The notes beneath the pieces were generated by a model. That model was not told the DNA's origin, did no database searches, and saw nothing but the letters and a program-made list of their open reading frames with translations. 41,173 bases of DNA from an uncultured Anaerolineae bacterium. Its GTDB lineage: Bacteria; Chloroflexota; Anaerolineae; Anaerolineales; Villigracilaceae. Of the stretch, positions 15,712 to 31,817 are shown one piece after another (positions within the stretch are counted from its first letter, which is position 1; the number at the start of each line of letters is the position of its first letter). The translations under genes were made by a program, and so were the position numbers. Location of the stretch: assembly GCA_903822545.1 (NCBI GenBank), contig CAIJPN010000009.1:1-41173 (forward strand), in the 5' to 3' direction.

Positions 15712-15792
15712 TGTACACGGATTTCACGGTTTTGCACGGATAAACCTTAAAAAATCCGTGTTTTTCCGTGTCATCTGTGAAATCCGTGTACA
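15712..15792. repeat. Inverted repeat element in the DUF2200-cobS gap
   Basis: TGTACACGGATTTCAC (15712-15727) and its exact complement GTGAAATCCGTGTACA (15777-15792) bound an 81-base element with inner CACGGAT/ATCCGTG copies. Flanking AAAACC and GGTTTT extend the arms with a three-base offset. It contains no gene. It resembles dispersed 'ATCCGTG' palindromes and lengthens an otherwise tight operon junction. Confidence 0.65.
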
Positions 15793-18771: not shown

Positions 18772-18801
18772 GAAAATCTCCGAATTCTCCCTCATCCCCG
18801 G

Positions 18802-18895
18802 CCCTTCCCCCGGCGGGGGAAGGGAGTCTGCCCCCCTCTCCCTTCGGGAGAGGGGCTGGGGGTGAGGGCTGGGGTAGAGGGGCTGGGGGTGAGGG
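18802..18895. repeat. Composite GC-rich repeat between btuC and btuD
   Basis: Two perfect hairpins, CCCTTCCCCC/GGGGGAAGGG (18802-18811/18815-18824) and CCCCTCTCCC/GGGAGAGGGG (18833-18842/18846-18855), are followed by a 19-base direct repeat (GAGGGGCTGGGGGTGAGGG at 18850-18868 and 18877-18895, period 27). It occupies nearly the whole 127-base gap, where transporter genes of this kind usually abut. Confidence 0.7.
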
Positions 18896-18898
18896 GAT

Positions 18899-29935: not shown

Positions 29936-30793
29936 CTAAAGGCTGATCAATGTTCCCAGATTCCGCCCTGCCAGCGCCAGTTCAACCCCCCCGGCATCTT
30001 CCCCGCTGAAAATTTGCGCCGTCAGCCCGGGGATTTCGGTCACCAGGTCAAGCATCTGCTTTACTTTGGATTCCATCCCGCCGGTCACATCGGCGCCGTG
30101 GGAGGCCCCCACCTTCTGCTTGATCTCGTTAAAAGATGCGGGTGTAATATTTTCCACCCGTACCTGCCTTGCCGGGAAATCGGCCCAGACTGCCCCTTCC
30201 AGTCCGGCCAGCAAAATCCGCTGGGGCTGGAGCTTTTGCGCCAAAAACTCAAACAAATCCTCGGTCGAGAGAATCGTACCGCCTTTGATGGTATCAAAAA
30301 TCACATCGCCATAGATCACCGGCACCAACCCGGCCGAGAGCGCCGCTTTTAACGGTGTCAAATTCCAGCCCGAGACTTTGCCGCCGCCGGAAACTACCGC
30401 CGAAACGGGAGCCAGCGCCAGGGCGGGAATCCCGGCTGAATGCAGGGATTCCATCACAAAGCGGTTCAACGCCGAGGCCTGGTACCAGACTTCGGCAAAT
30501 CCGCGCCAATACTCACCCTCACCCCCCTCGGCGCTGCGCGCCACTCCCCCCAAATGCTCCGCATTTGGGGGGAGCCGGAGGGGGGCCCCATCGCGCGTTT
30601 TATACTGCTTCGCGGCGGTGTGCCCAAAGGAGCCGGAGCCATGCCCGAGCACGAGGCCCAGATCAGGCGCGGATTCTCGCGCCCGGGCGATCTGCGCGGC
30701 CAGGTCGGCCAGTTTTTCCAGCCGGGGGGTATAGGGCAGGGTTTTATCTGTGATCAAAGACCCGCCGAGTTTGAGGAATACGAGTTCTGTCAT
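29936..30793 (-). CDS. Isopentenyl phosphate kinase (with an in-frame insertion)
   Basis: 285-residue amino-acid-kinase-fold enzyme that phosphorylates isopentenyl phosphate to isopentenyl diphosphate in the alternative mevalonate pathway known from archaea and some Chloroflexota. Diagnostic features: FLKLGGSLITDK at residues 6-17, HGSGSFGH at 51-58 with the catalytic His58, NRFVMESLHSAGIPAL, and GDVIFDTIKGGTILSTEDL. Residues about 69-95 form an unusual Gly/Pro/Glu-rich segment encoded by a palindromic repeat (30531-30586); typical family members go from TREG directly to the GFAEVW segment. The ATG at 30793 lies seven bases after a good -10 element, so the mRNA is probably leaderless; an ATG at 30802 would overlap that element. 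Mevalonate-pathway genes are not in this window. Confidence 0.9.
   Translation of the reverse strand: MTELVFLKLGGSLITDKTLPYTPRLEKLADLAAQIARARESAPDLGLVLGHGSGSFGHTAAKQYKTRDGAPLRLPPNAEHLGGVARSAEGGEGEYWRGFAEVWYQASALNRFVMESLHSAGIPALALAPVSAVVSGGGKVSGWNLTPLKAALSAGLVPVIYGDVIFDTIKGGTILSTEDLFEFLAQKLQPQRILLAGLEGAVWADFPARQVRVENITPASFNEIKQKVGASHGADVTGGMESKVKQMLDLVTEIPGLTAQIFSGEDAGGVELALAGRNLGTLISL
30531..30586. repeat. Palindromic repeat inserted inside the isopentenyl phosphate kinase gene
   Basis: A perfect 14-bp stem (CTCCCCCCAAATGC at 30544-30557, GCATTTGGGGGGAG at 30561-30574) is enclosed by a second pair (CCCCCCTCGGC / GCCGGAGGGGGG with one bulge) and a small GGCGC/GCGCC stem. The composition is unlike the flanking coding sequence, the reading frame is kept, and the encoded residues are absent from the family motif pattern. 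It looks like an inserted REP/MITE-like element. Confidence 0.7.
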
Positions 30794-30800
30794 ACGAATC

Positions 30801-30828
30801 ATTTTACACGCTCAATTCGGCGAGTCAA
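30801..30828 (-). promoter_or_regulatory. Promoter giving a leaderless isopentenyl phosphate kinase transcript
   Basis: Minus-strand TTGACT (30823-30828), a 16-base spacer and TAAAAT (30801-30806), seven bases before the ATG at 30793. This is a near-consensus promoter placed so that the transcript would start at the start codon. Confidence 0.6.
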
Positions 30829-30835
30829 TAGCGGG

Positions 30836-30841
30836 TATAAT
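30836..30841 (+). promoter_or_regulatory. -10 element for the plus-strand Thr-Pro protein (possibly leaderless)
   Basis: A perfect TATAAT ends seven bases before the ATG at 30849, in the context GGGTATAATTTTAAGAATG, nearly the same as at udk (GGGTATAATTTAACCATG). No ribosome binding site and no clear -35 are present. Confidence 0.4.
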
Positions 30842-30848
30842 TTTAAGA

Positions 30849-31817
30849 ATGGATATAAAAGCAGGCATCCAAACTGCCATCATCCTGGCAATTTTTGCGG
30901 GCGCGGTTTATCTGTGGGTGGGGATTCAAACGATAGGTGCATCGCGCAGGCTGGTTTATTACCGCTTGCGGCAGCAGCGCGTTTCGCAAGGCTGGCGCAT
31001 GATCATAACGGCGCTGGCGCTGGGCGTAGTGGCCTTCACGCTCGGGCGCTGGGGAGAACCAGTGATCTACAGCTTTTACGACCCATCTCCCACCCCCACC
31101 CTGACGCCAACAATTACCCTGACACCTACCGTCACCCTGACACCGACAATTACCCTGACACCCAGCCTGACCAACACGCCATCCATCACCGATACGCCCA
31201 CGATGACCCCCACGCCATTTGTCCCGGCGCTGGTCGCGACACTTTATACCAGTTCTGTAACGCCCGCACCAAATGCCATTTTCAGCCAGCTGGTATTTGC
31301 GCGCAATTTTAACCCCACCACCTATGAAGCCATCGGCCCGGCAACAGTCTTTATCAACCCCATCACCAGCCTGGTGGCAATTTTTAGTTACGACAAAATG
31401 ACCCCCGGCGCACAGTGGACAGCGATCTGGTATCGCAATGGCGAGCTGGTTTTTTACGAAACCCAACCCTGGGATGGACAGGTTGGCGGCTATGGCTATA
31501 CTGTCTGGGAACCAGAGTCCAAATCAGAATGGCTGGCCGGGGAGTATGAAGTGCAAATTTTTGTGGGGCTAGATTGGGTGGTAGTCGGGCGATTTACGGT
31601 GGAAGGTGACCCGCCAACCAAGGTTCCCACACCCACCGTTACGTTTACACCATCCCCATCCCGCACCCCCGTGCCAACGCTGACTCCCAGCATCACCCTG
31701 ACGCGCGCCCCAACCACCACGCTCACTCCCAGCCGAACACTGGCGCCCAGCCCGACACTACGCCCCAGCAACACGCCGCGCCCCACCGATACACAATGGC
31801 CAACATCAACGCCATAG
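30849..31817 (+). CDS. Membrane-anchored protein with Thr-Pro-rich linkers
   Basis: 322-residue protein not assigned to a known family. Two hydrophobic helices (about 8-27 and 50-67) are separated by a short basic loop (RRLVYYRLRQQR). A low-complexity segment (about 78-123) is built of TPT/LTPT/ITLTPT units. A compact region (about 125-253) ends with GEYEVQIFVGLDWVVVGRFTV, likely a beta-sandwich exposed outside the cell. A second Thr/Pro/Ser-rich tail (259-322) closes the protein. Such TPT linkers are frequent in Anaerolineae surface proteins. It is transcribed divergently from isopentenyl phosphate kinase, and a strong hairpin follows the stop. Confidence 0.85.
   Translation: MDIKAGIQTAIILAIFAGAVYLWVGIQTIGASRRLVYYRLRQQRVSQGWRMIITALALGVVAFTLGRWGEPVIYSFYDPSPTPTLTPTITLTPTVTLTPTITLTPSLTNTPSITDTPTMTPTPFVPALVATLYTSSVTPAPNAIFSQLVFARNFNPTTYEAIGPATVFINPITSLVAIFSYDKMTPGAQWTAIWYRNGELVFYETQPWDGQVGGYGYTVWEPESKSEWLAGEYEVQIFVGLDWVVVGRFTVEGDPPTKVPTPTVTFTPSPSRTPVPTLTPSITLTRAPTTTLTPSRTLAPSPTLRPSNTPRPTDTQWPTSTP

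Follow-up and report, generated by a model that had tools for sequence, protein, structure and literature searches.

The isopentenyl phosphate kinase (IPK) gene in a 41,173-nt stretch of DNA from an uncultured Anaerolineae bacterium (hereafter, the window) carries an in-frame insert that is probably a copy of a dispersed, non-autonomous 66-nt palindromic element, one found in a single Anaerolineales-type family of Chloroflexota, persists inside genes and has copies that move. A preliminary description of this DNA had proposed a small mobile palindrome lodged in a loop of the kinase. The dispersed in-frame element was borne out in the genomes of relatives; movement itself we could only infer, no pair of filled and empty sites having been caught among near-identical strains.

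The host gene is an open reading frame of 288 amino acids (29936-30802, minus strand) that is open throughout, insert included. It belongs to the AA_kinase family (Pfam PF00696; 79.6 bits, E = 3.9e-22) and matches solved IPKs, the best structural match being 3k4o (E = 2.9e-28) in an alignment that covers residues 7-74 and 100-286, with the insert left unaligned. The 66-nt insert sits between ...HGSGSFGHTAAKQYKTRDG and EGEYWRGFAEVW and translates as APLRLPPNAEHLGGVARSAEGG, at a position that is predicted from the alignment to be a surface loop. A single-sequence AlphaFold model of the protein had a mean pLDDT of 39, too low for use. The residues EGEY that follow the insert belong to the host IPK loop and not to the element. 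The element contributes 22 codons rather than the roughly 26 residues originally counted. In the neighbouring open reading frame at 30750-31817, an 18-bp tandem repeat (31098-31162) codes for a Thr-Pro-rich stretch.

The element occupies 30521-30586 (coding on the minus strand) when its purine and pyrimidine ends are included, and its 64-nt core (30522-30585) is built of three helices. On the plus strand, a left outer arm, CCCCCCTC (30522-30529), pairs with a right outer arm, GAGGGGGG (30578-30585), forming an 8-bp outer stem that amounts to terminal inverted repeats. Enclosed by it are a small 5-bp hairpin, GGCGC-TGC-GCGCC (30530-30542), and a large hairpin (30544-30574), whose perfect 14-bp stem (arms at 30544-30557 and 30561-30574) closes on a 3-nt loop. 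The preliminary description was thus right about a perfect 14-bp stem in frame within IPK, and its limits of 30531-30586 cut off one outer arm. The minus strand from 30500 to 30610 folds at -64.7 kcal/mol (z = -4.87), a value that none of 200 dinucleotide shuffles equalled.

Ten 64-nt copies, from genes for IPK, xanthine dehydrogenase (XDH), an ABC ATPase, alanyl-tRNA synthetase (AlaRS) and an NTP-transferase, align without gaps. Across them, 7 of the 27 base pairs are altered on both sides, with the clearest compensatory changes in the small hairpin, and 98.5% of cells are paired, compared with 44-67% when the partners are slid. As these copies were chosen partly by their hairpins, the paired percentage is biased upward, and stronger evidence comes from the pairs altered on both sides. 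A covariance model (R1), built from eight copies of a subtype termed C6 and two of a subtype termed C5, matches the window copy at 89.4 bits. No Rfam family matched the element at gathering score.

In the best 66 R1 matches among family genomes (see below), a purine precedes and a pyrimidine follows 42 of the 50 genic elements and 12 of the 13 intergenic ones. Because these ends are also found outside genes, they belong to the element or to its target, and the unit is 66 nt, or 22 codons. This purine and pyrimidine are the only conserved flank: the same 66 copies revealed no conserved tetranucleotide before the element and, at three offsets, no target-site duplication, direct repeats of 2-5 nt being near chance.

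The preliminary description had tied its reading to further copies in the same genome, and on this point the outcome was mixed. In the 5.53-Mb genome (a draft of 237 contigs), the exact 14-mer occurs in both arms of the window copy and nowhere else. A search of the window for the 14-mer at up to two mismatches gives just these two arms, a count that 22 of 100 shuffles also reach, and a word this short therefore carries no weight by itself. R1 returned 17 rows from this genome at E ≤ 0.01. Two of them are the window copy itself, which is also picked up through its large hairpin on the opposite strand; elsewhere the score peaks at 59 bits versus 89 for the window copy, leaving one full-strength copy only. 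BLASTN with the element gave one partial match (E = 5e-7) and others that were weaker, and the loose pattern CTCCCCC-gap-GGGGGAG was found at 19 places versus 7 for a reversed control, mostly in other hairpins with longer loops. On this genome by itself, the preliminary reading would come close to being refuted; the evidence for dispersal comes instead from relatives.

In a protein search with IPK of 101 genomes (the window's own and 100 relatives), the insert peptide was also matched in non-IPK proteins. The large-hairpin pattern is present in 65 of 100 family genomes, and the reversed control in none. At E ≤ 1e-3, R1 finds matches in at least 115 of 140 family genomes and at least 36 matches in the richest genome, these counts being lower bounds since the scan scored 37 candidates per genome. 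In a phylum-wide sample of 301 genomes, 15 of 18 family members carried R1 matches at E ≤ 1e-6, compared with 4 of 283 other Chloroflexota, and none of these four exceeded 51 bits. An exact-pattern scan of 84,980 species genomes, narrow enough to miss most variants, yielded 14 stretches, of which 13 came from Chloroflexi/Anaerolineae assemblies; the remaining one, from a Desulfobulbaceae genome, has no outer arms, looks like a chance match and was rejected as a true copy. Dispersed palindromes of a possibly similar layout, with a short hairpin followed by CTCCCCC..GGGGGAG, are known in gut Firmicutes.

The genes that carry copies were identified from the best 66 R1 matches of the family scan, taken in rank order, by reading the long open reading frames across them and scanning 39 of these with Pfam; in place of a gene caller, "intergenic" here means the absence of a convincing open reading frame. 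By this measure, 50 copies are genic and in frame, 13 are intergenic and 3 are unclear. Pfam domains were matched in 37 of the 39 proteins, and in 25 of the 37 the domain alignment spans the insert: UvrD (two), MeaB, AlaRS (two), a DEAD-box helicase, NTP_transf_3 (four), HemD, IPK, cytochrome c, glycosyltransferases (three), TlyA/FtsJ, Ham1, QueG (two), ValRS, HAD, RimO, CinA and CofD. In the other 12, the insert lies between or after domains: XDH (four), ABC ATPase (two), RlmN (two), an ABC exporter, a methyltransferase-glycosyltransferase, a mevalonate kinase and an FAD oxidase, whose copy near the C-terminus is the weakest genic case. Thirteen more copies, including locus L194 and the window itself, were called genic because they share a site with an identified gene. 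Tallied without L194, the 49 genic copies occupy 25 distinct gene sites, spread over 23 genomes and 12 genera. The mevalonate kinase-like copy, at 2594-2657 of locus L209 in genome G057, stands before the GHMP domain of its gene, which presumably encodes a step in the pathway to which IPK belongs.

Subtypes C6 (CCCCCCTC...CTCCCCCC) and C5 differ by one base of register, and they differ in where they reside. C6 copies are genic in 43 of 44 cases, whereas only 7 of 22 C5 copies are genic, with 12 intergenic and 3 unclear (p = 2e-7, Fisher's exact test, unclear cases omitted); this comparison catches too few of the weaker C5 copies, because C6 outnumbers C5 by eight to two among the sequences from which the ranking model R1 was made.

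Several gene sites are filled in more than one genome. A copy between TIEGL and LHPLQ of XDH is found in 7 genomes of 5 genera, and other recurrent sites lie in the ABC ATPase (5 genomes), NTP transferase (5), TlyA (4), RlmN (2), UvrD (2) and HAD (2) genes. Such recurrence could also reflect old inheritance, with a single entry into each gene in an ancestor of the family, followed by loss or erosion in most lineages and no movement now. Sequence comparison lends this some weight: between genera, C6 copies that share a site differ at a mean of 8.7 of 64 positions (36 pairs), which none of 1000 label shuffles matched, compared with 11.0 for different sites between genera and 10.8 for different sites within one genome. 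Likewise, near-identical pairs exist, with 3 of 64 differences between the AlaRS copies of genomes G036 and G017 and a single difference between the QueG copies of G113 and G059. The 8.7 versus 11.0 figure speaks for some inheritance and against fully independent insertion. Yet both orientations occur at one XDH site within genus g12, and again within genus g3, and the two UvrD copies are of different subtypes with 14 differences. Moreover, stems are still paired at the level given above for the ten aligned copies, and filled and empty IPK loops are interspersed on a tree, as described below. We therefore consider inheritance without present movement unlikely as the whole account, and we read the resemblance of copies at the same site as the joint outcome of fresh insertion and of inheritance, the latter perhaps accompanied by inversion in place.

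The IPK loop illustrates this interspersion. On a quick tree of 57 IPKs computed with the loop excluded, 28 have a bare loop of exactly 19 residues, compared with 39 in the window, and at least 10 changes between empty and longer loops are required (at least 12 if "longer" is taken as loops of 26 or more). These bare loops supply the uninserted allele that had been sought in relatives, and, together with the 3k4o alignment, from which the inserted residues are absent, they show that those residues are not shared by distant IPKs. R1 elements lie in the longer loops of G000, G059, G119, G040 and G050, with weaker R1-like sequences in G060, G024 and G031. The window copy is opposite in orientation to those of G059 and G119, from which it differs at 7 and 5 positions, respectively, and this fits either inversion in place or the arrival of a copy of the same subtype. 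Some other longer loops hold CCCCTCTCCC-type palindromes and many have no clear palindrome; as a group, longer IPK loops showed no significant excess of palindromicity over empty ones (p = 0.40). Nor does the term "domesticated", applied to the insert in the preliminary description, hold up: in sister genera the loop is empty, differently filled or palindrome-free, and there is no sign of selection keeping the insert. In the IPK gene of G031 (locus L024, approximately 1709-1866), the loop looks like a series of palindromes in frame, first R1-like and then of CCCTCTCCC types.

Turnover is equally visible in AlaRS, where the loop between GYI and WEIE was compared across 18 genomes of one genus. 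Two genomes carry a full R1 element, three a half element, four a CCCTCTC/GGGAGAGGG palindrome and five a GCAGTTCAACTGC palindrome, which is also found in a second AlaRS loop of some of these genomes; of the remainder, three have filler of no assigned type and one has almost nothing. Among the plus-strand loci of TlyA and QueG, the TlyA loop is similarly mixed and the QueG loop less clearly so. In the TlyA gene of G036 (locus L297), an apparent deletion remnant lacks the large hairpin and retains the outer arms with some of the small hairpin. Several unrelated palindrome types in one loop within a genus, along with half elements, are what might be seen if template switching at replication forks created palindromes in situ, with no transposition involved. 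However, template switching does not account for a single 64-nt consensus whose ends are fixed across 25 distinct gene sites, and we regard this origin as very improbable; template switching may instead reshape copies after they arrive.

The reading of copies by their hosts bears on a further alternative. The 49 genic copies are read in all six frames and in both orientations, with no stop in these open reading frames: antisense copies in phases 1, 2 and 0 number 21, 2 and 1, and sense copies in phases 1, 0 and 2 number 14, 10 and 1, the two phase-1 frames together taking 35 of the 49. A conserved encoded peptide is absent, as what copies across genes have in common is DNA and not peptide. If the insert were a natural Pro/Gly-rich loop under protein-level selection, its palindrome would be a by-product of GC-rich codons. 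Such loops do vary in length in many proteins, and base composition accounts for much of the coding capacity: 26 of the 49 genic copies have no stop in any of the six frames (mean 5.4 open frames), compared with 31% of dinucleotide shuffles (mean 5.0), while 2 of 10 intergenic copies are likewise fully open (mean 4.3; shuffles 4.2). Nevertheless, the same DNA read in six frames at 25 distinct gene sites, the 13 of 66 copies that lie between genes and the compensatory changes leave this explanation scarcely credible. Finally, an assembly artefact can be dismissed almost entirely, for although the window comes from a 237-contig draft, covarying copies occur in many separate assemblies, including the single-contig G057 and G102 and the two-contig G171.

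The preferred reading is a dispersed mobile palindrome whose copies lie in both orientations and in all frames; the survivors would sit where 22 mostly Pro, Gly, Arg, Glu and Ser residues are harmless, selection sparing only tolerant loops. Copies would survive in genes because their length is divisible by three and they are mostly stop-free. They may move as single-stranded hairpins, an idea suggested by the conserved fold and the absence of a duplication, and perhaps be mobilised in trans by a Y1 (HUH) transposase. Y1 transposases are encoded in 136 of 140 family genomes; beside the 30 best Y1 loci, a minority of the Y1 genes found, only two weak R1 matches were seen, which makes a Y1 enzyme acting in trans a matter of conjecture. 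Hairpin-driven errors that invert a copy where it lies, delete half of it or replace it with another palindrome could then produce turnover at the same loops. A bolder version, in which C6 is a coding-adapted mobile element that is almost only genic, is indifferent to frame and orientation and takes turns with unrelated palindromes at shared loops of housekeeping enzymes, making the loops of essential proteins a turnover zone for selfish DNA, seems to us evenly balanced between right and wrong.

Three known systems invite comparison. Rickettsia palindromic elements (RPEs) are small palindromic repeats of approximately 150 bp, each with a conserved peptide, many of which lie in frame in unrelated conserved genes and are apparently tolerated (PMC10969869). 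The RPE-like character suggested in the preliminary description is upheld, in that the present element, judged by its copies in relatives, is a dispersed palindromic repeat in frame in unrelated conserved genes. Unlike RPEs, which were compared by description only, it measures 64-66 nt, is frame-neutral across six frames, sits in loops that are reused across genera and comes from another phylum. Repetitive extragenic palindromes (REPs) are sequences of 20-40 bp that lie outside genes and are tagged with GTAG or CGTC (PMC3733652). The element resembles the REP/RAYT system in being a short hairpin repeat in a family where Y1 transposases are common, but it is 64 nt long, genic in 50 of 66 cases and flanked by no conserved GTAG or CGTC tag; beside the 30 best Y1 loci R1 gave the two weak matches noted above. 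MITEs are non-autonomous, have terminal inverted repeats and in some cases form in-frame fusions with host open reading frames, as ERIC and Coxiella MITEs do (PMC10969869; PMC5896051; PMC2759123). The element shares all three features, its inverted repeats being the 8-bp outer stem, and differs in having no target-site duplication and, in a search restricted to Y1, no autonomous partner.

As RPEs already exist, we rejected the notion of a categorically new class. A review treats frequent in-frame insertion as a peculiarity of Rickettsia and regards a shaping of proteins by similar elements as conceivable in other prokaryotes (PMC10969869). Among titles and the openings of abstracts, most subscription papers being out of reach, no relevant literature on coding palindromes in Anaerolineae or Chloroflexi was found. 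The present copies offer a replicated natural experiment in Chloroflexota, with approximately two dozen genes, including those for tRNA synthetases and rRNA methylases, in which a 22-residue insert is present, absent or different in sister genomes. This opens to test the way in which such elements move and the idea that new protein loops are seeded by selfish DNA, and it explains the odd PLRLPPN...EGG-type segments of these proteins as translated repeats. Small repeated DNA, it seems, keeps entering protein loops in this lineage.

The window holds further palindromes outside the IPK gene. Between two ABC transporter genes, a GC-rich intergenic array (18787-18896) consists of CTTCCCCCGGCGGGGGAAG and CCCCTCTCCCTTCGGGAGAGGGG with GGGGCTGGGGGTGAGGG repeats, and it is of the same palindrome type as fills the IPK and AlaRS loops of relatives. 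Beside a gene start, a perfect 16-bp inverted repeat (TGTACACGGATTTCAC...; 15712-15792) with 49 nt between its arms looks like a member of another palindrome family.
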